Below are positions 1,476 through 16,603 of a DNA stretch of 64,000 bases, piece after piece. Positions within the stretch are counted from its first letter, which is position 1. Every line of letters starts with the position of its first letter. The translations under genes and the position numbers were made by a program. The stretch is from Halogeometricum rufum (lineage in GTDB: Archaea > Halobacteriota > Halobacteria > Halobacteriales > Haloferacaceae). The notes below the pieces were generated by a model. It was not told where the DNA came from. It searched no databases and saw only the letters and a program-made list of their open reading frames with translations. Location of the stretch: positions 186,001-250,000 of the forward strand of contig NZ_FOYT01000004.1 of NCBI RefSeq assembly GCF_900112175.1, written 5' to 3'.

Positions 1476-1510
1476 GCGACGACGCGAACGGCGGTGAGAA
1501 CGCATGGTAG
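1472..1510 (+). other. 12-codon mini-reading frame bridging two ATPase genes
   Basis: ATG at 1472 overlaps the stop of the first ATPase gene (ATGA). The frame encodes MSDDANGGENAW and stops at 1508-1510, just after the ATG (1504) of the second ATPase gene, which is in another frame. It overlaps both neighbours, so it could act as a translational coupler. It is very short and may be chance. Confidence 0.25.
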
Positions 1511-2649
1511 AACTCGTACTCGACGCGGTGACGAAGCGGTACGACGACGCACAGGGGACGGAGACGGCCGTCGACGACGTGTCGCTCTCCGTCGAAGACG
1601 AACTGCTCGTGTTGCTCGGCCCGTCGGGGTGCGGGAAGACGACGACGCTCCGCATGGTCGCCGGACTGGAGACGGTGACCGACGGCCGAATCGACATCGG
1701 GGGTCGCGACGTGACCGACCGGCACCCGAGCGACCGGTCGATAGCGATGGTGTTCCAGGACTACGGACTGTACACCATGATGTCCGTCGGGGAGAACATG
1801 GCCTACGGCCTGAAGCACTCGACCGACCTCTCGAAGGCCGAACGAGACGAGCGAGTCGAGTCGATGGCCGAGATGTTCGGCATCGAGGACCTGCTCGACC
1901 GCGACGTGACGGACCTCTCGGGCGGGCAGAAACAGCGCGTCGCCCTCGGCCGCGCGATGGTCCGCGAACCCGACGTGTTCCTGCTGGACGAACCGCTGGC
2001 GAGTCTGGACGCGAAGCTTCGCTCGCAGATGCGGACCGAACTCCAGCAGTTGCAGGAGGAGATGGACATCACGACGATGTACGTCACCCACGACCAGAAG
2101 GAGGCGATGACGATGGCCGACCGCGTCGCCGTGATGAACGACGGGGTGCTCAGACAGGTCGGCCCGCCCGAGGAGGTGTACGAGAACCCCGTCGACAGCT
2201 TCGTCGCCGACTTCCTCGGCAACCCGTCGATGAACCAGCTTCCGGCGACGGTCGACAGGCAGGGCGAGCGCTACGTCCTCAGGACGGACGTCGGCGACGG
2301 CCGCATCGCGTTCGCCTCGATTCCGCGCGAGGGGACCGACGCGGCCGACGGCGACCGAGTCACCGTCGGCGTCCGCCCGGAACATCTCAGACTGTCCGAC
2401 CCCGAGACCGCCGACTTCGACGCGACGGTGTCCGTCACCGAGTACCAGGGGAGCGACAACTTCGTCCACGTCGACGTCGGCGAGGTGGAACTCACCGCCG
2501 TCGTCTCGCCGTCGGTCCGACCCGAACCGGGCGAGACGGTGCCGGTCACGGTACCGGCGTCCGCCGTCCACGTGTTCGACGGCGAGACTGGCGAGTCCCT
2601 GCGGACCTCGCGCGAGTCGGACCCCCGGTCGAAGACCGTCCGCTCCTGA
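1504..2649 (+). CDS. Sugar ABC transporter ATP-binding protein (MalK/UgpC type), second copy
   Basis: A 381-residue paralogue of the preceding gene, with Walker A GPSGCGKTT at 39-47, signature LSGGQKQR near 139-146, Walker B FLLDEP and a C-terminal TOBE region with VGVRPEHL. It lacks the acidic N-terminal extension of the first copy. Two MalK-type ATPases side by side in one operon is unusual: many sugar ABC systems use a single ATPase as a homodimer, so a heterodimer, or service to a second transporter, is possible. Transcription ends against the convergent glycosidase gene. Confidence 0.93.
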   Translation: MVELVLDAVTKRYDDAQGTETAVDDVSLSVEDELLVLLGPSGCGKTTTLRMVAGLETVTDGRIDIGGRDVTDRHPSDRSIAMVFQDYGLYTMMSVGENMAYGLKHSTDLSKAERDERVESMAEMFGIEDLLDRDVTDLSGGQKQRVALGRAMVREPDVFLLDEPLASLDAKLRSQMRTELQQLQEEMDITTMYVTHDQKEAMTMADRVAVMNDGVLRQVGPPEEVYENPVDSFVADFLGNPSMNQLPATVDRQGERYVLRTDVGDGRIAFASIPREGTDAADGDRVTVGVRPEHLRLSDPETADFDATVSVTEYQGSDNFVHVDVGEVELTAVVSPSVRPEPGETVPVTVPASAVHVFDGETGESLRTSRESDPRSKTVRS

Positions 2650-2721
2650 CCCGACGTGCGACCGGTGTCGTCTCGGTCAGTATCGACCCGGCGGGCGTCT
2701 CCCCGGAGGATGTCCAGTCGC

Positions 2722-2805
2722 TCGGACGTTCAGAGCGGTCGGCCGAACGTCCAGAGCGGTCGATTGAGCCTCAGAACGGCCGTCCGAACCCTCAGAACGG
2801 CCGGT
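2722..2805. repeat. Four tandem copies of a roughly 21-base repeat
   Basis: The octamer CAGAGCGG or CAGAACGG begins at 2731, 2752, 2772 and 2793, with similar flanks (AACGTCCAGAGCGGTCG type), giving a period of 20-21 bases. The array fills the space between the convergent ATPase and glycosidase genes, and the last copy covers the glycosidase stop codon. It could contribute to bidirectional termination; no function is shown. Confidence 0.6.
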
Positions 2806-3718
2806 CGACGGTCGCGCGGCGGAGTTCGAAGCTCCCGTCCTCGCGGGCGACTTCCGCGAACAGTTCCCAGTCGTCCTCGCGTCTGCGCACGTCGAGATAC
2901 CGGCAGGTGCCGAACGTCGACAGTCCGGTTTGTCGGTCGGCGGCGGGCGAGGCGTAGAGCGGGCCGTCCGGGCAGGTGTCGGTGAACGTCTTCAGGTCCG
3001 TCGTCACGGCCATCCCCGTCCGAAGGTTCCACGTGCGCCCCTCGTCGGCCACGCCGCTCCCGTCGTAGAACACGAGCCACGCGGGCGCGTCGGGCGCGGG
3101 GACGACCGTCGAGACGCGCGTGTGGTGGTCGTGCCAGTACCCCCGTTCGAGGACTGGGTTGTTCGCGGCGCGCGTCCACGTCTCGCCGTCGACGCTGGTG
3201 GCGAGGTGCGCCTGTTCGGAGAGGCCGTCTGCCCCGGCGTAGAACATGTAGTAGCGGCCGCCGACGGTCAGTATCGTCGGGTCCTTGACGACGCCGGCGT
3301 CGGTCCCGCCGGGGGCGGGACGGAGGACGGGGCGAGCGGTCGTCGGGTCGACCGATTCGACCGAGGGCGCGTCGGCGCACTTGCGAATCGTCCAGTCGTT
3401 CCCGCCGCGGTCGACCGGCAGGTAGAGTTGGACGTCGCCGGTCCGCGGGTGCGTCACGAGCGACGGGCGTTCGATGCTGACGACGCCCAACTGCTCGGCC
3501 GTCACCGTCAGCACCGCCTCCCCGACGCCGTCGTCGTACGCGTAGACGGTGACGCGGTGCCCCCGTCGGTCCGGGTCGCGTTCGCGGACCGCGAGGTAGG
3601 CGTCGTCGCCGTGGTCGTACGCGCACGGGGCGCCGACCCAGTTCCCCTCGCCCGTCGCGTCGGGCGAGAGGAGCGTCTCCGCGTCGCCGAAGTCGACCGC
3701 CGGCGGTGTCGCGTGCAT
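2792..3718 (-). CDS. Five-bladed beta-propeller glycosidase-like protein (GH43/GH32/GH130-type fold)
   Basis: A 308-residue protein with no signal peptide, so probably cytoplasmic. The repeated pattern of an Asp-containing blade start (KDPTIL then GGRYYMFYAG), the ATSVDGETWTR blade and the VFYDGSG segment are typical of the GH43/GH32/GH62/GH130 propeller superfamily, which hydrolyse or phosphorolyse sugar chains. The exact family and substrate cannot be assigned. The start at 3718 (MHATPP) is preferred over 3733 because an AT-rich TATA-like box lies about 30 bases upstream, fitting a leaderless message. The gene is divergent from a TrmB regulator and convergent with sugar-transport genes, so it probably processes the imported sugar. 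Confidence 0.8.
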   Translation of the reverse strand: MHATPPAVDFGDAETLLSPDATGEGNWVGAPCAYDHGDDAYLAVRERDPDRRGHRVTVYAYDDGVGEAVLTVTAEQLGVVSIERPSLVTHPRTGDVQLYLPVDRGGNDWTIRKCADAPSVESVDPTTARPVLRPAPGGTDAGVVKDPTILTVGGRYYMFYAGADGLSEQAHLATSVDGETWTRAANNPVLERGYWHDHHTRVSTVVPAPDAPAWLVFYDGSGVADEGRTWNLRTGMAVTTDLKTFTDTCPDGPLYASPAADRQTGLSTFGTCRYLDVRRREDDWELFAEVAREDGSFELRRATVDRPF

Positions 3719-3743
3719 GAAACAAGACAACAACTCGCAGGGG

Positions 3744-3753
3744 TTATAATTTA
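3744..3753 (-). promoter_or_regulatory. TATA-like box of the glycosidase gene
   Basis: On the minus strand this reads TAAATTATAA, centred about 30 bases from the ATG at 3718. It is the only AT-rich stretch in the divergent intergenic region and supports the shorter, leaderless start. Confidence 0.55.
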
Positions 3754-3807
3754 CTGCGGCGTCTACGGAGTCGTGACGATGCGCAGCGAACGAGGGGGAC
3801 GACGAGG

Positions 3808-4875
3808 ATGAACGAGCACGAACTGCTGCAGGAACTGGAGGACCTCGGGTTGACCGAGTACCAGTCGAGGACGTACCTCGCGGCCGTGCGCGCCGGAGAG
3901 GCGCGCCCGAGCGAACTGGTCGACGACTCCGGCGTCCCGCAGGGCCGAATCTACGGCGTCATCGACACGCTCGAAGAGATGGGTCTCGTGGAGGTGCGCG
4001 CGGGGCCGCAGGGCAAGGAGGTGAGCGCGCCGTCGCCGAAAGTCGTCCTCGACGACCTCAAGCGGCGGCGCATCGACGACCTGACCGAGACGGTGTCGTC
4101 CGTCGCGACCGGACTCGAAGAACTCCACCACCGCTCGGACGGAGAGCCGCGGAGTTTCGTCTCGATGGTCAAGCGCGACGAGACGGCGCTCCGACACGCC
4201 CGGCGGGCGATAGACGCGGCGGAGTACTGGCTGACCGTCTGCCTGCCCGACGAGCGCTACGTCGAACTCGAACCGCACCTCCTCGAAGCCGCGGACCGGG
4301 GCGTCACCGTCCGCGTGCTGTTCATCGGGACGGACCCCGACGAGGTGGGTCGGACGTTCCCGGACCGGTTCCACATCCGTCACCGCGCCGCCGCCGACAC
4401 GTTCGTCGTCGCCGACCGGACGTACGGCATCTTCTCCAGCAAACACCCGGTTCAGGACCGACAGCCGTACATCATCACCCAGGAGCCGAACCTCGTCCTC
4501 CTGTTTCAGAACTACGGCGAGCAGGTGTGGCACGCTTCGCGAGTCGTCCAGACGTCGCCCTCGTTCCCGCGCCGGTACCTCGACCCGTGGCGAACGGTCA
4601 TCGACCTCGGGGAGCGATTCGAGGCCGGCGAGGAGTTCTCGGCCGTCGTCGAGGGGCGGCGGACGGGACACCGCGAACGCGGGCGCTGGGCGGGCCCAAT
4701 CGTCGAGTACGACGTGGGCGGGCCGGCGGACGTGGACTACACGAACTCGCCGCCGACGTACGCCACGCTGACCGTCGAGACGGACGACGAGACGGTGAAG
4801 GTCGGCGGTTGGAAGGCGACGTTCGAGGACGTGGCCGCGAGGGGAATCGAGGTGCGGACGGGCGACGACGAGTAG
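3808..4875 (+). CDS. TrmB family sugar-responsive transcriptional regulator
   Basis: A 355-residue regulator. Residues 1-100 form a winged helix (LGLTEYQSRTYLAAV, then a recognition region ending GRIYGVIDTLEEMGLVEV), followed by a coiled stretch and a C-terminal TrmB sugar-binding region of about 230 residues. Members of this family bind sugars and control uptake and glycolytic genes in haloarchaea and Thermococcales. It is divergent from the glycosidase gene and next to the sugar ABC operon, so it probably regulates both. Its stop is four bases from the convergent rhomboid gene. Confidence 0.92.
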   Translation: MNEHELLQELEDLGLTEYQSRTYLAAVRAGEARPSELVDDSGVPQGRIYGVIDTLEEMGLVEVRAGPQGKEVSAPSPKVVLDDLKRRRIDDLTETVSSVATGLEELHHRSDGEPRSFVSMVKRDETALRHARRAIDAAEYWLTVCLPDERYVELEPHLLEAADRGVTVRVLFIGTDPDEVGRTFPDRFHIRHRAAADTFVVADRTYGIFSSKHPVQDRQPYIITQEPNLVLLFQNYGEQVWHASRVVQTSPSFPRRYLDPWRTVIDLGERFEAGEEFSAVVEGRRTGHRERGRWAGPIVEYDVGGPADVDYTNSPPTYATLTVETDDETVKVGGWKATFEDVAARGIEVRTGDDE

Positions 4876-5595: not shown

Positions 5596-6624
5596 ATGTT
5601 CGAGATTCGGACCGACCCGCAGATAACGACCGGACGAACCGGCGGCGTGGTCACGGTCTCAGACATCCGCGCGATACACGGGCTGCCCGACCCCGCTTCG
5701 GACGACGCGCCCTCCGGCGCGGGCCTCACCGTCGCCGTGATGGACTCCGGCGTCGACGAGAGCCACGAGGTGTTCGACGGTATCGAGGTCGAACACCACA
5801 ACTTCACCGGCGCGCCCGACGAACCGTACGACGACGTGGGGCACGGAACGGCCGTCGCCGGCCTCATCGCCCAACTGTCGCCCGGCATCGAGCGCATCGT
5901 CGACCTCCGCATCTTCGGAAAGAGCGGGAGCGGCAACAGCAAGCCGATATTCGACGCGTACGACTGGGCGCGGTCGCACGCCGACGAACTCGCCACCATC
6001 AACCTCTCGTGGGGGTCCAGCGAGCGGAATCGCGAAATCGACCACGAGCACACCCGCCTGATGAACGCCGGGGTGCAGGACGTCGTCTCGGCGGGGAACA
6101 CCGGCGAGACGAGCGGCAGTCCGGCCACCGCGATGGACGCCTACGGAATCGGCGCCATGACCGAGGAGCGAGAGCTGACGCGGTTCAGCAGTTACAATCC
6201 CGGGGCCGTCGAGAACCCCGACACCGTGGCGCTGGGGAAGGACGTCCGCCTCCCGCGTGCGACGGACACCTCGCTGGGGACCGTTCTCGACGACGACTAC
6301 GTGAAGGCCAGCGGGACGAGTTTCAGCGCCCCTATCGCCACCGCGGCGATGAACCTCTTCGTCGAGGTGCGGAAGCGAGCGTCGGAACTCCCCTTCGAGC
6401 GCACGGCGGTGGACATCCCGGGGACGCCGGAGGACGTCCACGGCTACATCCGCTACGACCGCGCGGTCGAGTCGGACGCCGCCGGTGCCGAGGTGGAACT
6501 GTTCGACCTGCCCTTCACCGACTACGAGGGCGTGGCGCTCCCGGCCGGGTGGGCGAACGGGGCGACCCGCGCGGTCCTCGAACGGGAGAGCGACCGGGAG
6601 ACGGTGGTCCGGTTCGAGCGGTGA
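5596..6624 (+). CDS. Subtilisin-like serine protease (peptidase S8), no signal peptide
   Basis: A 342-residue S8 peptidase. The catalytic triad is visible: Asp50 in VMDSGVDESH, His83 in GHGTAVAG and Ser242 in SGTSFSAP, with the oxyanion Asn in SAGNTG. The N-terminus (MFEIRTDPQI) is neither a Sec nor a Tat signal and there is no long propeptide, so the enzyme probably stays in the cytoplasm, unlike secreted halolysins. The last 80 residues form a small beta-rich tail. It is divergent from the rhomboid protease gene. Confidence 0.9.
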   Translation: MFEIRTDPQITTGRTGGVVTVSDIRAIHGLPDPASDDAPSGAGLTVAVMDSGVDESHEVFDGIEVEHHNFTGAPDEPYDDVGHGTAVAGLIAQLSPGIERIVDLRIFGKSGSGNSKPIFDAYDWARSHADELATINLSWGSSERNREIDHEHTRLMNAGVQDVVSAGNTGETSGSPATAMDAYGIGAMTEERELTRFSSYNPGAVENPDTVALGKDVRLPRATDTSLGTVLDDDYVKASGTSFSAPIATAAMNLFVEVRKRASELPFERTAVDIPGTPEDVHGYIRYDRAVESDAAGAEVELFDLPFTDYEGVALPAGWANGATRAVLERESDRETVVRFER

Positions 6625-7472: not shown

Positions 7473-8267
7473 TCACCGAAGCCGACGCACCGCGAACAGT
7501 GCTGCTGCCAGCGCCGCCAAGACGGCCCCGGCGGCCCACGCGGAGACGCCGCCGACGCCGAACGGAATCGGCGAGGCGCTCGGCACCGACTCCGCCGACC
7601 CGTCGGCCGCGTCCGGCGTGGCCGCGGCCGCGTCGTCGGCGTTCTCCGGCGCGTCCGTCGCCGTCCCGTCCGCGGCGTCGGCCGCCGTGGCGCCGGTCGA
7701 CTCGTCGGGCGCCGAATCTGCCCCACCGACCGTGTCGGCGGGCGTGGTGGTCGCGTCGGCGACGGTCACCGACGCCGACCGACTCTCGACGGGGTATCGC
7801 GACCCGTCCTCCGCGCCGAGCGCCGACACGGAGACGGAGACGTCCGTCGTTCCGGGGGCGGCGCCGGAGAGCGTCACCGCCGCGATGGTCACCGTCCCGG
7901 CGTCGTCGGTGTCCAACAGCGCCGCGTTCAGTCGGGCGCGCGAGCCGTTCGACGACACGTTCACGGTCTGTAGTCCGGGGTCACCGACGAGTTGCACGTC
8001 GGTGATGGTCGCGACGGACGGGTCCGAGAGGCCGACCACGAGGTCGTACGCGCCGACGCCGCCGTCGACGTTGTCGACGACGACGCGGACCGTAGTCGTC
8101 TCCGAGACGGCCACGCGGTCGTTCGACGCGTCCAACTGCACCGTCGTCGCACTCGCGGCGCCCGTCGTCGCGCCCACCGTCGCGGCCGAGACGGCCACGC
8201 AGAGGACGAACGCGACGGCGGCGACGCGTGCGAGGCCGCCGACCGTACCCCGAAGCGAGTTCAGCAT
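7473..8267 (-). CDS. Membrane-anchored cohesin-domain surface protein
   Basis: A 264-residue exported protein. Residues 1-37 form a Sec-type signal, and residues 38-180 form one cohesin-like beta-sandwich (VDNVDGGVGAYDLVVGLSDP, then a TVTIAAVTLSG strand). A disordered Ala/Asp/Thr-rich linker spans about 181-230, and residues 235-262 form a membrane helix ending in basic residues (VRRLR). The domain is clearly homologous to the two cohesin-like domains of the next gene upstream. Cohesins bind dockerins, and this protein has the layout of an anchoring scaffoldin: one outward-facing cohesin tethered to the cell. It is last of three genes on this strand, 24 bases from its neighbour. Confidence 0.82.
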   Translation of the reverse strand: MLNSLRGTVGGLARVAAVAFVLCVAVSAATVGATTGAASATTVQLDASNDRVAVSETTTVRVVVDNVDGGVGAYDLVVGLSDPSVATITDVQLVGDPGLQTVNVSSNGSRARLNAALLDTDDAGTVTIAAVTLSGAAPGTTDVSVSVSALGAEDGSRYPVESRSASVTVADATTTPADTVGGADSAPDESTGATAADAADGTATDAPENADDAAAATPDAADGSAESVPSASPIPFGVGGVSAWAAGAVLAALAAALFAVRRLR

Positions 8268-8291
8268 CGTGGGACCTCCCCGGTCATGAGT

Positions 8292-10358
8292 TCAGGCGTC
8301 CTCGCTGTTCTGTGCGACCTCGTTGTAGTACAGCCACTGGACGTCGAGGATGTCGAAGGTCCCGTCGCCGTTGAAGTCGAAGGCTTCGGGGTTCGACACC
8401 GTCGTGTCGCTGTTCCGGTAGTAGAACAGCGTCTGGACGTCCAGCACGTCCACGACGCCGTCGCCGTTGACGTCCTCGTGGAGTCCGTCGTCGTCGCCGT
8501 CGGCGGCCGGACCGTCGGAGTCGCCGACGACCAGCGTCGTGACGGTCAGCGACGAGCCCTGAACGTCGTCCACGTCGTAGGCCGTCCCGGCCTCGGTGCC
8601 GAGCGTCGTCACGTCTATCGAGAGGTCGCTCTCGCCCTCGACGGCGCCCTGTACCGCGACGGTACCGAGCGTCACCGGGCCGGTGTCGTTCGTGTCGACC
8701 ATGACGGTCTCGATGGTGACCGACGAGCCGTCCTCGGCCAGTTGCACGTCAGAGAGCCCGCCGCCCGCGAGTTCGACGCCGGCGATGCTCCCGACGCTGG
8801 GGTTCGAGAGCGACAGCGTGATGCTGTACGCCCCGACGCCGCCGTCGACCGGGTCGACCACGATGTCGTACGTCCCGTTCTGGTTCACGCCGAGGAGGTC
8901 CTGCGACGGCGAGAGGCTGACGTTCGTAGACGCCTGGCCGTCCGCCGGCGGTTCGGGGTCGGCCTCCGCTTCGACGGTCATCGTCGCGCTCGCGCTGTCG
9001 TTCTCCGTCGCGAGGACGACGGCGTACGCGCCGGACGAGAGCCCGGTCGTATCGACTGCGAAGCTGACCTGTTGGCTCGCACCGCCCGCGAGCGTCAGTT
9101 CCTCGCTCCCGACGGCCGACCCGTCTGCGGAGAGCGAGACCGTCTGCGTTCCCTGTTCGTCGCCGACGTTCTCGACCGTCGCGGTGACCGTCGCCGAGTC
9201 ACCCTGCGTCACCGGCGACGGGACGGCCAGGTTCGTCACCTGGAAGTCCGCCGGGACGGGGTCGGGCGTCGGTTCCGAGACCGTGAGCTGTGCGGTCGCG
9301 GTGTCGTTGTCGGTCGCGACGCCGTGCGTGTACGTGCCGGCGGCGACGCCGGCGGTGTCGACCGCGAAGGAGACGGTCTGACTCGCGCCGCCCGCGAGCG
9401 TCACGCTCTCCGTCTGTGCGACGCTCCCGTCGAAGCTGAACGCGACGGTCTGCGTCGCCTGCTGGCCGCCGACGTTCTCGACCGTCGCCGAGACCGTCAC
9501 CGAGTCGCCCTGCGTCGCCGTCGTCGGCGCGGTCAGGCCCGAGACCTGGAAGTCGGCCGGTGCGGGCGCTTCGGTGACGGTGACCGTCTGCGTCGCCGTC
9601 GTCGTCGCGCCGTCGTCGTCGGTCACGCTCACCTCGACCTCGTACTCGCCCGCCGCGGCGTACGCGTGCGTGACGGACTGGCCGGAGACGGTCGTGCCGT
9701 CGCCGAGGGTCCAGTCGTAGCCGGCGACCGAGCCGTCGGCGTCGGCGGCGGACGCCTCGAACGTCAGTTCGTCGCCCACCTGCGCGCTCGACGGACCGGT
9801 TATCGAGACGGTCGGCGGCGCGTTCGTCTCCGCGACGGTCAGCGTGGCGCTCCCGACTGACGAGAGCGTGTAGCCGGTGCCGCCCTCGTCGGACAGGAAC
9901 AGCCCCAGGTCGAGGCCGCCCGCCTCCGACGGCGAGACGACGTCGATAGCTGTCGTCCCGGCCGCCTGACCCTCCAGCGTGACGGTGAGGACCGTGACCG
10001 AGCCGGCGTCCGCGGTGTCGTCGAACGCGTAGACGGCGCTCGCCGCGGAGCCGTCGGCCGCGACCGAGAGGTCCGTACTACCGGGGGAACTCCCCGCAGC
10101 GACGTCGACGATGGTCGCGACGCTCGGGTCGCTGAGTTGGACCCCGACCTGTCCGGACCCGACGCCGCCGTCGGCGTCGTCGAGGACGACTTCGACCGTC
10201 GTCGTCTCGCCGGGTGCGAGTTCTGATTGAGCGGGCGATACGCTGATACTCGTCGTCCCGGCCGCACTGACGACGCCACCGGCCATCGAGAGGACGGTGA
10301 GCGCCGCCAGCACGACCGCGAGCGTCCTGGTGGTCCAGTGAGTTGTGTTATCGGGCAT
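8292..10358 (-). CDS. Secreted scaffold protein: cohesin, PKD, two CARDB, cohesin, dockerin
   Basis: A 688-residue secreted protein. In order: Sec signal (1-33), cohesin-like domain (about 35-176), PKD domain (about 180-266, PPTVSITGPSS to the DDDGATTTATQTV strand), two CARDB-type beta-sandwiches (268-362 and 364-466), a second cohesin-like domain (468-612) and a type I dockerin (about 620-683). The dockerin has two EF-like calcium loops, DVNGDGVVDVLD and DFNGDGTFDILD. A protein with both cohesins and a dockerin matches an adaptor scaffoldin, which could dock onto the membrane-anchored cohesin protein downstream and recruit the dockerin-bearing giant protein encoded upstream. Binding partners are inferred, not shown. 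Confidence 0.85.
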   Translation of the reverse strand: MPDNTTHWTTRTLAVVLAALTVLSMAGGVVSAAGTTSISVSPAQSELAPGETTTVEVVLDDADGGVGSGQVGVQLSDPSVATIVDVAAGSSPGSTDLSVAADGSAASAVYAFDDTADAGSVTVLTVTLEGQAAGTTAIDVVSPSEAGGLDLGLFLSDEGGTGYTLSSVGSATLTVAETNAPPTVSITGPSSAQVGDELTFEASAADADGSVAGYDWTLGDGTTVSGQSVTHAYAAAGEYEVEVSVTDDDGATTTATQTVTVTEAPAPADFQVSGLTAPTTATQGDSVTVSATVENVGGQQATQTVAFSFDGSVAQTESVTLAGGASQTVSFAVDTAGVAAGTYTHGVATDNDTATAQLTVSEPTPDPVPADFQVTNLAVPSPVTQGDSATVTATVENVGDEQGTQTVSLSADGSAVGSEELTLAGGASQQVSFAVDTTGLSSGAYAVVLATENDSASATMTVEAEADPEPPADGQASTNVSLSPSQDLLGVNQNGTYDIVVDPVDGGVGAYSITLSLSNPSVGSIAGVELAGGGLSDVQLAEDGSSVTIETVMVDTNDTGPVTLGTVAVQGAVEGESDLSIDVTTLGTEAGTAYDVDDVQGSSLTVTTLVVGDSDGPAADGDDDGLHEDVNGDGVVDVLDVQTLFYYRNSDTTVSNPEAFDFNGDGTFDILDVQWLYYNEVAQNSEDA

Positions 10359-10486
10359 TGTCTGTTGTCTGGGTGTCTCGGTCTCCTGCGATACCGCCGG
10401 TCGCCGCTCCGAGGGGAGAGACGAGACCGTCTGGAGTGGTCTCGGAGCGTCGTCGGAACGTCGGAGTCGACTGCGTCATGGAGTGA

Positions 10487-13400
10487 TCAGCTCCCTCCGA
10501 CCAGTTCGGTGAACAGCGCCTGTGCGTCCCCGACGTTGACCGTCCCGTCGCCGTTGACGTCGAACGCGTCGACGTTGGACTGAACGACCGGGTCGGTCAG
10601 GTTGGAGAACAGCGCCTGCGCGTCGCCGGTGTTGACCGTCCCGTCGCCGTTGACGTCCTCGTAGACGCCGTCGCCGTCGGGGTCGGTCGGCGCGTCGGTG
10701 GAGTCGCCCACCGGTCCCGGACCGGTCGCGGCCGCCTCGACGGTCAGCACGAACGTCTGCGAGACGCTCGCGTCGCCGTCGGCGGCGGTGACGGTCACGG
10801 TGTACGGGCCGTCGGCCGCCGCGCCGACGGGCGGCGCGAACGCGAGTTCGCCCGTGCCGTCGCCGGCGTCGGTCAGGGTGGTGAACCCGGCGGCGTCGCC
10901 GGCGTCGACCGACAGCGACACGTCGTCGCCGTCGGGGTCGGTGGCGTTCAGCGCAACGGTGAGCGACTCGTTCTCGGTGACCGTCTGGTTCGTCACCGCG
11001 TCGAGCGTCGGCGGCGCGTTCGCCTCGACTTCGACGACTTCGATGCCGTTCACCTGCGGGTTCTCGGTGACGTGACCGAACGAGACGTTCAGTTCGTCGT
11101 CGCTCGGCGTGACGACGAACGTCTGCGTGCCCGCGGTGTTGTCGCCGTACGTCTCGATGACGTCGAACTCCGTGAGGACCTGTTCGCCCTCGACGGCCAC
11201 GTCGAAGACGCGGTCACCGACGGCGTCGGTCTGCGGGTAGCCGTCGTGGAAGTGCAGGCGCACCTCGTACGTCGTCCCCGACTGCACCGGGAACGACCAC
11301 GCCATCTCCGGGCTCTCCGACGCGTCGTACCGCTCGGTCGCGAATATCGCCGTCGGCGTGCCGTTCGGCACGGACGCGTCGACACTCGCCGGCTGGTACT
11401 GACTGTCGGGCAGGTCACCGCCGGCGACGAGGTACTCGCTCGGCGCCGACTCGGTGTCGGCCGTCCAGTCGGTGCCGCCCTCGACGGCGATGGCGGGACC
11501 GCCGACGTTCACGCGGTAGAGCGCGTCGCCGGTCGGGTCGCCGCCGTCGTCGGGCGTGCCGGCGCTCTCGTCGTAGCGCAACACCACGACGTTCGACGCG
11601 AGTCCGGTCTCGCCCTCCGCGTCCGCGGCGGCGGCGATGAAGTAGTTCAGGCCGCCGGCGGCCGAGGAGTTCGTCAGTTCGACGGGTACCGTCGCGGTGC
11701 CGTCGGAACCGACGGTGACGGTGTACTCCTCGACGTCGAGGGCGTTGTTGGCCTCGAACGCCTCGACGTCGTAGCCGGCCGTGCCGTCGTAGTCGGGCAC
11801 GCCGACGAGGTTGGTCTCTGCCTCCACTCGCAGGAGGGTCACCGTCGAACCGGGGTCGCCGGTGACGGTCACCGTCTGCTGTGCGTCGGCCACCGTCGCG
11901 GCCGTGTGAGCGTCCGAGAGCGTCGTCGCGTTCAGCGTGACGTTCTCGACGCCGACGCTCGGTGCGGCGGCGGTCGTCGCGTCGGCGACGGCCTGCGACC
12001 CGCCGGCGCTTCCGTCGCCGAACAGGCTCGTCTCGGCCGTCGCGCCGTCCGCGAACTGGACGGTCACGCTGGAGCCGGCGAGTTCCAGCCCCGAGATGGG
12101 ACCGGCCTCACCGGACTGGACCGAGGACCCGCCCTTGATGCTGGTCGGGTCGTTGTCGATGGAGAAGGCGATGGACTCGCCCGGCTGGAAGGAGCCGAAC
12201 TCGACGGTGAGCGTGCTGTAGCCGTCGGCGCCGTCGACGCCGTTCTCGGGGTCGGAGACGGTCGCCTGGACCGTCCCGCTCGTCCCGTCGTCGTCGACGG
12301 TGAAGCCCTTCGCGCCCTGGTCGCCGGCCGTGCCGTCGGGGTCGAAGACCACGTCGGGCAGGACCGCGGAACTCAGGTTCAGCGTGAGCGACTCGATGTC
12401 CTCGTCGCCGGTGTTCTCGACGACGAACGACCCGGAGTCGTACGTCGTCGCGCCGACGCCCTCGCCGGCGTCGACCTGAACGGTCGCCTCGCCGGCCGTC
12501 GGGCCGTCGTCGGCGACCTGTTCGACGCGCATCGCCGAGAGCTTCGCGTTGTCGGTGACGACCGAGAGGTCGACGTTCAGTTCGCCGTCGGTCACCTCGA
12601 CCGTGTACGTCTGCTCGCTCGCGGTGAGCGGACCGACGTCGGCGTAGATGTCGTAGCTCGACAGCACCTGCTCGCCCTCGATGGAGGCGTCGAACAGGCG
12701 GTCGTTCTCGTTCGTGCCGTCGCTCGGACCCGAGGAGTCGGGCTGGTCGTTCGTCGAGACGCCCTGGTAGATTTCGGCGAACTGGAGCGTCACCACGTAC
12801 GTCCCGTTCTCGACGGGGACGTCGTAGCCGAACGCCTCGCCGTACCGCTCGGTGTGGTACAGTTCGTCGTCGTCCGTGCCGTTTATCTCGGGGTCCGACG
12901 GCGTGCCGGCGGCCCCGACGGTGAACGTCTGTCCGCCGTCGAAGTTCGTGTCGGCCTGATAGACGGTGCCGTCGGTGGCGGTGTACGCGGGACCGCCCGC
13001 GTTGACCGCGAACACCGTCTCCGTGGTCGTCGCGTCGGTGTCCTCAACGGCGACCGTCACCGTGTCGGTGTCCGATGCGCCCGCCTCGTCGGTCACGGTC
13101 ACCTCGAAGGTGAGCGTGGTGTCGCCGTCCACGTCGGGCGCGGTGAACGTCGGTTGGGCGCCGTCCTGCACGCTCAGTTGCGCGTCGGGACCGCCCGTCT
13201 GCGTCCACGAGTAGCCGAGTTGGTCGCCGTCGGCGTCGGTCGAACCGGTCGCGTCGAACGTCACCGTGGCGCCCTCCGAGACCGTCTGGTCGGCGCCGGC
13301 GTCGGCGACGGGCGCGGCGTTCGCGCCGATTTCGGTCACGGTCAACCGGTCCCACGACGCGGAGAACGTCTCGTCCGCGCCGTTGGCCGTGCTGATGAGG

Positions 13401-16400
13401 CCGACGGCCATACCCTGGTTCTCGTCGGCGTACCAGCTCTCGGGGACGGTGAGCGTCTGGTCGAGATAGACGCGTTCGCCGCCGTCGATGGCGTAACTGG
13501 CTATCGCCGTGTCGTTCGACGGGTAGACGTCGACGAACAGGTCGATGGTCTGCCCGCTTCCGAACACGTCGGGCTCGGAGACGATAACGGAGTCGCCGTT
13601 AGCGACCTGCCCGCCGGACTCCTTCAGGAACTGGACCCCGCCGTTGGGGTTGCCGTTCGCGTCCTGTGCGCCCGCGACCAGTTTGACGTAGTTGTCCTGG
13701 TCGCCGGTGCCGAGGTACATCCCGGCGGCCTGGTAGTTCTCGGGCGTCGTGTCGTTCGAGAACGGCGATTCGACCGTCCCGGAGACGGTGAACGGCGCGT
13801 CGCCGGTCGCGTTCACGCCGTACTGGAACGCGTACGCCTGCGAGTTCTTGTTCTCGTAGGCGTCGCCGAAGGGCGCGGCGTCCACCGAGATGCGCTCGGT
13901 TGCGCCGCCGGCGCGGACCTGCGAGGCGTTGTAGAGGTCCGCGTAGTCGGTGCCGTTCGTCATCAGGCCGGTGAAGCCGAGGCCGAACAGCGACTGCGGG
14001 TGCTGCCCCGCCTCGAACTGCCGGTCGACCGGTAGGTCGTTGTCGAGGCCGTTCTGCGCGTCGATGGCGAACGGATCCTCGCCGTCGGAGAGTCCGTCGT
14101 TGTCGTCGTCGGTGTCTATCGAGTCGGGCGAACCGTCGAAGTCCCTGTCCTCGGGCTGTGAGGCCTGCGAGCAGGGGTCCGTGCCGACCTGGTTCTCGTC
14201 GGCGTTGGTGTAGCCGTCGCCGTCGGCGTCACCGTCCGGGTCGTACTCCGAGGAGTCGGGGTCGTCCGCCGTGCAGACGCCGCCCGCCGCCCCGTCGTAG
14301 TCGTTCGGTTCGAAGACGGTTATCTGGTTGCTGCCGTAGGTGGCGGCCCACACCGTGCCGGGGAACACCGCGTCGTCGCCCTGTGCGTGGACGTCGAGCG
14401 GGTTGCTCCCGATGTTCTCGAACAGCGCTTCGGTGGACGTGGCCTCGGTCCCCTGCGCGTTCAGTTCGACGCGCTGGACGTCGCCGGAGTTCCACATCGC
14501 GAGGAGCAGGTCGCCCTGCATCGCGCCGCCGAAGTTCGACGCCGTGTAGACGTCCATCCCCTGCGCCGTCGCGCCGAACGTCTCGAGCGCGGCGCTCTCG
14601 GAGGAACCGTTCGTCGGCGAGATGAAGTCGCAGTTCACCGAGTCGTGGAGACCGCTCTCCACGGCCGCGCCGAACTGGCTGTTCGGGTTACCGCGGGTCG
14701 GGTTCGGGTGACCGGCGTAGTAGTCCTCGCCGTCGACGTGGTAGACGCCCGCGGCGGAGAACTCGTCCTGTTCGTTCTGCTCGTTGGTGCAGACGCCCTG
14801 CGGCCCCTCGTCCACGACGATGCCGCCCCAACCGGGGTTGGCGCTGTTGTCCGTCGCGTACAGTTTGCCGCTCTCCCCGAGAGCGATGTCGTAGGCGTTC
14901 CGGTAGCCCGGCGAGTAGACGTCGACCGGACTGTCGGCCGTCCACTTCGCCATGTTCGCGCCGTCCATCCCGCCGAACGGGCCGTCGGTCGGCGTCGCGT
15001 CCGGGTCCAGGGTCGGCAGGTCGTACAGGTACGTCGCGTCGGTGTTGGCGGCGTCCTTCTCGGCCATCGCGTCTATCTGGCCGAGGTCGATGGAGAGAAT
15101 CGCCGCCGAGAGCGCGTACTCCGGCGTCAGCGCGAAGTTGTCCGAGGGCGCGCCCTTGTTCGTGTGGCCGCCCTGCGCGACGTACAGCGTGTCGTTCGCC
15201 GCGTCGTACTGGAGGCCGTTCGTCGCGTGGTTCTCCTCGGACCGCGGCAGGCCGCGGACGAGCATGTCGTGGTCCCACCCGCCGTCGCTCTGCTGAGTCA
15301 ACCGCGAGACGACGCCGGAGTTGGTGTCCAGTCCGCTGTCGGTGTGGCCGCCGCCGGCCCCGATGCGGGGGTCGCTGGACGTGACGTAGACGACGGGCGT
15401 GTCGGCCGTCCCCTCGACGATGAGCCCCGTCACCTGCCTGTTGCCGACGCCCGGGTTGTACGACCCGTCGTCGTCGTGGTTCGGGATGTCCTGCACGGCG
15501 TCGATGACCTCGGAGTCGGTCACCGCGTAGTCGTTCGGGCCGTTGCGGGTGATCTCGAACGCCTTTATCTCGCCGGACTGCTGGGAGACGTAGAGGCGTC
15601 CGTCGGGGCCGAAGTCGAGCGACGTCGGGTTCCCGAGGTTCACGTCGAGTCCGCTCACGCCGAAGCCGACGGGGACGGAACTGGAGCCGTCGCCGGCGAG
15701 TTCGACCGTCAGCGGACTAGCCGTGTTGGGCGCGTCGTGGTCGACTTCGAGCGTCGCCGCCTTCGGCGTCGCGTCCGACGGCGTGAAGGTCACCTCGACG
15801 GCCACCGTCTCGCCGGGCGCGAGCGTCGTGCTGCCCGCGAAGTCGGCGGTGAACTCGTCCGCGTCCGCACCCGTCACGGAGACGTCGGAGACGGTGATGT
15901 CGGCGTCGCCCGACCCGCCGTCGTTCGAGAGCGTGACCGTCTGCGTCTCGCTGGCTCCCGCGACGACGGTGCCGAAGTCGAGTTCCTCCGGACCGCCGAG
16001 TTCGCCGGGCGACGGCGTCGCCTCGACGATCTCGATGGCGTTGACCTGCGGGTTCTCGGTCACGTGTGCGAAGTCGACGTCGACCGTTCCGTCGCTGGTG
16101 ACGGTGAACGTCTCCATCCCCGCCGTCTGGTCGCCGTAGGCGGCGATGGGGTCGAAGTTCTCGACGGTCTGGCCCTCGACGCTGACGTCGAAGACGCGGT
16201 CGCCGGGCGCGCTCGTGCCGTCGAATCCGTCGTAGAAGTAGAGTCGGACCTCGACTTTCTGTCCGGACGGAACGTCGAACTCGTACTGCATCTCGTCTCC
16301 CTCCGGCGGGTCGTACCGCTCGGTGGTCCAGATGCCCGCGGGCGTCCCGGACGGAACTGTGCTGTCTATCGTACTCGGTGCCGGATTGCTGGCGGTGCTC

Positions 16401-16603
16401 CCGCCGGCGACCAGGTACTGGGTGTCGGACACCCAGTCCGGGCCGTCGGTCGCGGCGACTGCCCCGCCCGCGTTCGCGCGGTAGAGGACGTCACCCGGTG
16501 CCGCCGCGGCCGTGCCCGAGAAGGCGACGGTTCCGGCGAACACCGAGGTGACCATCAGCACCGCGACGAATACGGTCGTGATCCGTTTCGTGCGTCGTGT
16601 CAT
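10487..16603 (-). CDS. Giant secreted malectin / sugar-dehydrogenase-like propeller / dockerin protein
   Basis: A 2038-residue secreted protein. Approximate domains: Sec signal (1-36), malectin-like carbohydrate-binding domain (37-200), choice-of-anchor-D Ig-like domain (203-304), a six-bladed propeller resembling glucose/sorbosone dehydrogenases (312-768), calcium-binding TSP3-like repeats (775-858), a concanavalin-like sandwich (865-1094), a PKD/Ig domain (1097-1188), second malectin (1192-1365), two further sandwiches (to about 1680), third malectin (1692-1863), cadherin-like domain (1865-1968) and a type I dockerin (1972-2038). The dockerin has two textbook loops, DVNGDGTVNTGD and DVNGDGTVNVGD. 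It probably binds and perhaps oxidises polysaccharide or sugars outside the cell. The propeller assignment is by motif only and catalysis is unproven. It leads the cohesin-dockerin cluster; the next gene is 128 bases away. Confidence 0.88.
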   Translation of the reverse strand: MTRRTKRITTVFVAVLMVTSVFAGTVAFSGTAAAAPGDVLYRANAGGAVAATDGPDWVSDTQYLVAGGSTASNPAPSTIDSTVPSGTPAGIWTTERYDPPEGDEMQYEFDVPSGQKVEVRLYFYDGFDGTSAPGDRVFDVSVEGQTVENFDPIAAYGDQTAGMETFTVTSDGTVDVDFAHVTENPQVNAIEIVEATPSPGELGGPEELDFGTVVAGASETQTVTLSNDGGSGDADITVSDVSVTGADADEFTADFAGSTTLAPGETVAVEVTFTPSDATPKAATLEVDHDAPNTASPLTVELAGDGSSSVPVGFGVSGLDVNLGNPTSLDFGPDGRLYVSQQSGEIKAFEITRNGPNDYAVTDSEVIDAVQDIPNHDDDGSYNPGVGNRQVTGLIVEGTADTPVVYVTSSDPRIGAGGGHTDSGLDTNSGVVSRLTQQSDGGWDHDMLVRGLPRSEENHATNGLQYDAANDTLYVAQGGHTNKGAPSDNFALTPEYALSAAILSIDLGQIDAMAEKDAANTDATYLYDLPTLDPDATPTDGPFGGMDGANMAKWTADSPVDVYSPGYRNAYDIALGESGKLYATDNSANPGWGGIVVDEGPQGVCTNEQNEQDEFSAAGVYHVDGEDYYAGHPNPTRGNPNSQFGAAVESGLHDSVNCDFISPTNGSSESAALETFGATAQGMDVYTASNFGGAMQGDLLLAMWNSGDVQRVELNAQGTEATSTEALFENIGSNPLDVHAQGDDAVFPGTVWAATYGSNQITVFEPNDYDGAAGGVCTADDPDSSEYDPDGDADGDGYTNADENQVGTDPCSQASQPEDRDFDGSPDSIDTDDDNDGLSDGEDPFAIDAQNGLDNDLPVDRQFEAGQHPQSLFGLGFTGLMTNGTDYADLYNASQVRAGGATERISVDAAPFGDAYENKNSQAYAFQYGVNATGDAPFTVSGTVESPFSNDTTPENYQAAGMYLGTGDQDNYVKLVAGAQDANGNPNGGVQFLKESGGQVANGDSVIVSEPDVFGSGQTIDLFVDVYPSNDTAIASYAIDGGERVYLDQTLTVPESWYADENQGMAVGLISTANGADETFSASWDRLTVTEIGANAAPVADAGADQTVSEGATVTFDATGSTDADGDQLGYSWTQTGGPDAQLSVQDGAQPTFTAPDVDGDTTLTFEVTVTDEAGASDTDTVTVAVEDTDATTTETVFAVNAGGPAYTATDGTVYQADTNFDGGQTFTVGAAGTPSDPEINGTDDDELYHTERYGEAFGYDVPVENGTYVVTLQFAEIYQGVSTNDQPDSSGPSDGTNENDRLFDASIEGEQVLSSYDIYADVGPLTASEQTYTVEVTDGELNVDLSVVTDNAKLSAMRVEQVADDGPTAGEATVQVDAGEGVGATTYDSGSFVVENTGDEDIESLTLNLSSAVLPDVVFDPDGTAGDQGAKGFTVDDDGTSGTVQATVSDPENGVDGADGYSTLTVEFGSFQPGESIAFSIDNDPTSIKGGSSVQSGEAGPISGLELAGSSVTVQFADGATAETSLFGDGSAGGSQAVADATTAAAPSVGVENVTLNATTLSDAHTAATVADAQQTVTVTGDPGSTVTLLRVEAETNLVGVPDYDGTAGYDVEAFEANNALDVEEYTVTVGSDGTATVPVELTNSSAAGGLNYFIAAAADAEGETGLASNVVVLRYDESAGTPDDGGDPTGDALYRVNVGGPAIAVEGGTDWTADTESAPSEYLVAGGDLPDSQYQPASVDASVPNGTPTAIFATERYDASESPEMAWSFPVQSGTTYEVRLHFHDGYPQTDAVGDRVFDVAVEGEQVLTEFDVIETYGDNTAGTQTFVVTPSDDELNVSFGHVTENPQVNGIEVVEVEANAPPTLDAVTNQTVTENESLTVALNATDPDGDDVSLSVDAGDAAGFTTLTDAGDGTGELAFAPPVGAAADGPYTVTVTAADGDASVSQTFVLTVEAAATGPGPVGDSTDAPTDPDGDGVYEDVNGDGTVNTGDAQALFSNLTDPVVQSNVDAFDVNGDGTVNVGDAQALFTELVGGS

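Follow-up and report, generated by a model that had tools for sequence, protein, structure and literature searches.

Archaeoglobus fulgidus is known to possess a non-cellulosomal cohesin-dockerin pair (Bayer 1999; Voronov-Goldman 2011; PDB 2xdh). PMC9012536 cites archaeal cohesin-dockerin binding as experimentally verified, and the A. fulgidus pair has been employed for surface display (PMC9705933). Scaffoldin-like proteins with one dockerin and up to five cohesins are known from ANME archaea, in which the cargoes include ABC-transporter binding proteins and the S-layer proteins bear dockerins (PMC9012536). For haloarchaea, two papers interpret the dockerin as substrate-binding (PMC10963439, PMC13260240), and we found no description of haloarchaeal cohesins in the library searched, most subscription papers lying outside it. 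Here, we describe an operon of Halogeometricum rufum that probably encodes a small, non-cellulosomal surface scaffold with two separate cohesin-dockerin links.

The window (the whole stretch of 64,000 nucleotides that was analysed) contains three minus-strand genes (16603-7473) encoding, in this order, a giant cargo protein, an adaptor and an anchor protein, with intergenic gaps of 128 bp (giant/adaptor) and 24 bp (adaptor/anchor) according to our own gene calls (Table 1). All three proteins have a secretion-type hydrophobic N-terminus, and only the third has a C-terminal hydrophobic helix. The domain content, established by scanning the three proteins with Pfam and NCBIfam at the domain-family cut-offs, agrees with the initial annotation, which had described a same-strand cluster in this order, a giant with three malectin domains, a sugar-dehydrogenase-like propeller and a dockerin, and an adaptor with PKD, CARDB and its own dockerin. 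A MalK-type ABC-transporter ATPase and a TrmB sugar regulator are encoded a few kilobases from the operon (window positions 1504-4872), and a gene for a subtilase-family protease without dockerin lies near the anchor gene (5596-6621, plus strand).

Table 1. Features of the three-gene operon (positions in the window; aa, amino acids of the encoded protein)
Feature	Position	Strand	Evidence
Gene 1, giant cargo protein, 2038 aa, secreted	10487..16603	-	ORF, Pfam, NCBIfam
Malectin 1 (aa 38-193) and ASH/choice-of-anchor D (aa 199-306)	15686..16492	-	Pfam, NCBIfam
GSDH-like beta-propeller (aa 306-770)	14294..15688	-	Pfam GSDH; weak fold match, low-confidence model
Conserved domain without assignment (aa 874-1090) and PKD (aa 1095-1187)	13043..13984	-	
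Malectin 2 (aa 1196-1360), strongest of three	12524..13018	-	Pfam PF11721; phmmer 4e-13 to solved malectins
Two domains without Pfam match (aa 1371-1558, 1564-1683)	11555..12493	-	
Malectin 3 (aa 1693-1857)	11033..11527	-	
Cargo dockerin (aa 1972-2031)	10511..10690	-	Pfam Dockerin_1 4e-10
Gene 2, adaptor scaffoldin, 688 aa, secreted	8292..10358	-	ORF, Pfam
coh1, N-terminal cohesin (aa 36-175)	9834..10253	-	Profile search, tree
PKD (aa 179-262) and two CARDB spacers (aa 267-360, 369-462)	8973..9824	-	Pfam
coh2, dockerin-adjacent cohesin (aa 478-606)	8541..8927	-	AlphaFold2, Foldseek, VIA
Adaptor dockerin (aa 617-678)	8325..8510	-	Pfam Dockerin_1 7e-11
Gene 3, cohesin with predicted membrane anchor, 264 aa	7473..8267	-	ORF, profile search
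Anchor cohesin (aa 41-169)	7761..8147	-	Profile search 3e-45
C-terminal hydrophobic helix ending RRLR, behind acidic Ala/Asp-rich linker	7476..7550	-	Sequence, hydropathy

The haloarchaeal signal-peptide model recognises the giant, and the domain scans confirmed its ASH and PKD domains. Pfam recognised malectin in three stretches (E 1e-66), and this identity is secure at the level of sequence, with carbohydrate binding as the predicted function. The two domains without Pfam match preceding Malectin 3 recur in orthologues as one unit, often ahead of a malectin domain, and hhalign comparison of the unassigned domains of the giant with cohesins found no similarity. The adaptor has the architecture coh1-PKD-CARDB-CARDB-coh2-dockerin. 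Both dockerins of the operon exceed the PF00404 cut-off and contain two complete EF-hand-like calcium loops; position 11 of both loops is Gly in the cargo dockerin (DVNGDGTVNTGD, DVNGDGTVNVGD) and Leu in the adaptor dockerin (DVNGDGVVDVLD, DFNGDGTFDILD).

The score of the propeller against GSDH was 30.1 bits for the isolated domain and 22.0 bits for the full-length giant (cut-off 25), and GSDH also matches 20 of 22 orthologous propeller domains. An AlphaFold2 model built from six sequences reached a pLDDT of 48, and its first matches, AA12 PQQ pyranose dehydrogenases and a putative glucose dehydrogenase, therefore carry little weight. His154, Arg263 and Asn264 of the propeller domain are invariant across 22 orthologues, but the profile alignment to a canonical GSDH of the same genome covered 41 C-terminal columns only and stopped short of the active site. 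The genome holds no PQQ-synthesis gene (pqqE) over the cut-off, below which generic radical SAM matches were detected, as they were in all 14 control genomes. Given a match at family level and no pqqE over the cut-off, oxidation of sugars is only a possible activity of the propeller, a plausible guess from its family.

Of the families named in the initial annotation, HMM searches recovered type I dockerin, malectin and GSDH, and cohesin had zero Pfam matches. Pfam at E 0.01 likewise gave zero matches for 18 haloarchaeal cohesins, NCBIfam gave none for the cohesin-like domains of the operon, and plasmid-borne homologues are mostly annotated as hypothetical protein. An HMM profile searched against PDB sequences reached at best E 0.14, with ruminococcal cohesins, so that structure was needed for the assignment. 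The AlphaFold2 model of coh2 and dockerin (adaptor aa 470-688), computed from an alignment of this region with its relatives, has a mean pLDDT of 93.1. Its best PDB match in Foldseek is 2xdh, the non-cellulosomal A. fulgidus cohesin (E 1e-9), followed by many cohesins from cellulosomes, and VIA gave a Z of 15.1 to the cohesin of 6kge (type I cohesins). The initial annotation had allowed that these domains might fold as another sandwich; for coh2, the predicted structure confirms the cohesin fold. The profile that recognises coh2 also detects coh1 and the cohesin of the anchor protein. By its hydropathy, the helix of the third protein is a predicted cell-surface anchor. Cohesins in the anchor position that lack a membrane helix (L078, L080, L151, L152, L155) have acidic repeat ends such as YGYDFDEVSRETRIEIQNDYDAQFG, possibly an unassigned surface-attachment domain.

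We annotated propeller loci and other cohesin loci with the same profiles. Of 391 haloarchaeal genomes, 30 have the propeller of the giant, mostly next to genes for an adaptor and an anchor protein; the usual order is the giant, then an adaptor with a C-terminal dockerin, then a cohesin protein, mostly with a membrane helix. The gene order is thus conserved, whereas the lack of such conservation would have counted against the initial annotation, and because the set recurs across haloarchaea, the operon is not a chance arrangement. Giants without an adjoining adaptor occur in L139, L144, L150 and L158, and relatives carry up to three cohesins per protein, compared with two in the adaptor described here. 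Cohesin-like domains (E 1e-6) were identified in 162 of the 391 genomes (about 40%), contrary to the earlier suggestion that the system is unusual. Dockerins were found in 172 of the 391, and 131 genomes have both types of domain, where 71 would be expected at random in a count that ignores kinship. In the H. rufum genome (4.19 Mb, 7 contigs), the three cohesins and the only two dockerins over the Pfam cut-off are all encoded in this operon, so that their partners, if any, are within it.

A dockerin is present on the giant in 8 of 33 loci. Most adaptors of dockerin-less giants carry an N-terminal NEW3-like domain (weak PF10633 match) in place of the cohesin, and in at least 10 genomes of this type, the dockerin of the adaptor is the sole one found, though there are two or three cohesins. 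Since dockerins are rare on giants and that of the adaptor stands alone in these genomes, the constant link would be the one from the adaptor dockerin to the anchored cohesin. We infer that the adaptor and the anchored cohesin are the conserved core, to which the cargo link is an addition. Thus, of the anchor-adaptor-enzyme logic first proposed for this locus, the cohesin fold and the conserved order stand, and the dockerin link from enzyme to adaptor falls outside the core.

Where the cargo does bear a dockerin, the adaptor and its cohesins vary with it. Of the 28 loci that have both modules, 9 have a dockerin on the cargo, and in 7 of these the adaptor has an N-terminal cohesin, which is found in 0 of the other 19 (Fisher 3e-5). 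The coh1 clade is represented among the cohesins of 7 of the 8 loci whose dockerins include one with Gly-11, vs 0 of 20 others (7e-6). Both tests were framed after inspection of the data, ignore phylogeny and concern adjacent genes, which are also co-inherited. The first pairing fails in L078 and L080, both of which have additional multi-cohesin proteins. The dockerin label of the giant changes at least six times on the propeller tree, and the co-gain of cargo dockerin and N-terminal cohesin was therefore not one event. In L141, a separate malectin protein bears the dockerin, and here too an N-terminal cohesin is present on the adaptor. This locus and L082 occupy the two ends of a single contig (G024 C3) and could together form one operon that spans a circular junction, with two serial adaptors. 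Leave-one-locus-out profiles agree with the link between Gly-11 and the coh1 clade, L148 excepted, and L140, with Val-11 in its cargo dockerin, falls outside this clade; trees of such short domains have weak forks. We rejected Gly-11 as a universal dockerin code, which fails in cohesin loci of other than the giant type (L090, L091, L093, L105, L108).

The nearest relatives differ among the parts of the operon. For the giant, the nearest match is the Halobellus rarus protein (propeller 85%, dockerin 82%); for coh2, the dockerin of the adaptor and the anchor cohesin, it is found in two congeners (73-77%), whose giants have no dockerin. This pattern of sequence similarity suggests that the cargo was exchanged and the anchoring pair retained. 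Coh1 has only about 50% identity to coh1 of H. rarus, so that coh1 and the giant would not have moved as one recent block.

In the two-link scaffold that we propose, the third protein would sit in the membrane and present one cohesin, into which the C-terminal dockerin of the adaptor (Leu-11, both loops) would plug, and the adaptor would be held at the surface in this way. The C-terminal dockerin of the giant (Gly-11, both loops) would in turn plug into coh1, with the PKD and CARDB domains as spacers. With two different dockerin-cohesin specificities, only a single order of assembly would be open to the chain. Its likely role is to keep a protein that binds carbohydrates, and possibly oxidises sugars, on the cell surface.

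These two predicted links leave coh2 to be accounted for, which may bind the dockerin of a second adaptor. The adaptors could then form a head-to-tail polymer in which each dockerin binds either coh2 of the next adaptor or the anchor cohesin, as a fibre on the cell surface that has its cap at the membrane and carries cargo on each coh1; this is compatible with the two-link scaffold and only adds a partner for coh2. Coh2 adjoins the dockerin in most loci, and at least 10 genomes have the adaptor's own dockerin as the sole detectable one despite two or three cohesins, which speaks for such a fibre. However, the adaptor of L153 has a dockerin without coh2, and other adaptors place CARDB between the two. 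The clades of coh2 and anchor cohesins group the same sets of loci, but they are different clades, and co-inheritance of neighbours explains the shared grouping, so that we consider the fibre a tentative and somewhat doubtful extension. The short linker between coh2 and the dockerin could also mean that coh2 is a structural partner of the adjoining dockerin, as the X-module is in X-dockerin dyads, and binds no dockerin at all, and the single-dockerin genomes indeed offer it no other partner. This we regard as unlikely, as the adjacency is optional (coh-CARDB-dockerin in L140, L142, L143, L148 and L152, and no coh2 in L153), and the X-modules of such dyads have an Ig-like fold of their own.

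There would be no scaffold at all if the dockerins bound substrate or calcium and the cohesin-like domains were ordinary Ig-like spacers. Haloarchaeal dockerins have been published as substrate-binding modules (PMC10963439, PMC13260240), and the cohesin-like domains lack a Pfam cohesin match. Nevertheless, the structural matches from Foldseek and VIA are specific to cohesins, and the co-occurrence of cohesins and dockerins across genomes, their co-gain and the covariation of specificities make this reading highly improbable.

Further cohesin-dockerin loci were observed in haloarchaea (L095, L097, L098; L090, L091, L093; L081, L088; L083, L093), where these domains are fused to or adjoin a PhoX phosphatase, a 5'-nucleotidase, a PQQ-type propeller or a subtilase, often followed by a gene whose short cohesin product carries a membrane helix. 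Cohesin-dockerin proteins from an uncultured bacterium and a Candidatus Acetothermia MAG (L118, L123) also match the haloarchaeal profiles. We see an even chance that haloarchaea have a general plug-and-socket system of surface display, invisible to current annotation, with membrane-anchored cohesins, exchangeable cargoes (phosphatases, nucleotidases, proteases, propellers) and orthogonal types of dockerin by which the sequence of assembly is fixed. If true, many haloarchaea would attach secreted proteins by cohesin-dockerin plugs, beyond lipid, archaeosortase and membrane anchors; the operon would be a minimal test case with two predicted orthogonal pairs and a possible source of salt-stable binding pairs.

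Like the clostridial and ruminococcal cellulosomes, the operon combines a predicted anchor cohesin, an adaptor with cohesins and its own dockerin of a different type, and a dockerin-bearing cargo. In contrast to these, the cargo here consists of malectin domains and a GSDH-like propeller, and a membrane helix takes the place of SLH or sortase as the predicted anchor. We considered a cellulosome and rejected it: a scaffoldin with several cohesins is present, dockerin-bearing plant-polysaccharide hydrolases and a cellulose-binding module are absent, and no glycoside-hydrolase or CBM family exceeded the cut-off in the three operon proteins (Pfam, NCBIfam); with no hydrolase cargo, the operon is not a cellulosome. 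The ANME proteins resemble the adaptor in being scaffoldin-like, with a dockerin and several cohesins in one archaeal protein (PMC9012536). Their cohesins are detected by standard domain libraries (PMC9012536), whereas the haloarchaeal cohesins described here match no Pfam model. The A. fulgidus pair shares the archaeal cohesin fold and provides the best structural match to coh2, but the H. rufum operon brings together a cohesin with a predicted membrane anchor, a two-cohesin adaptor, a dockerin-bearing cargo and two dockerin types.
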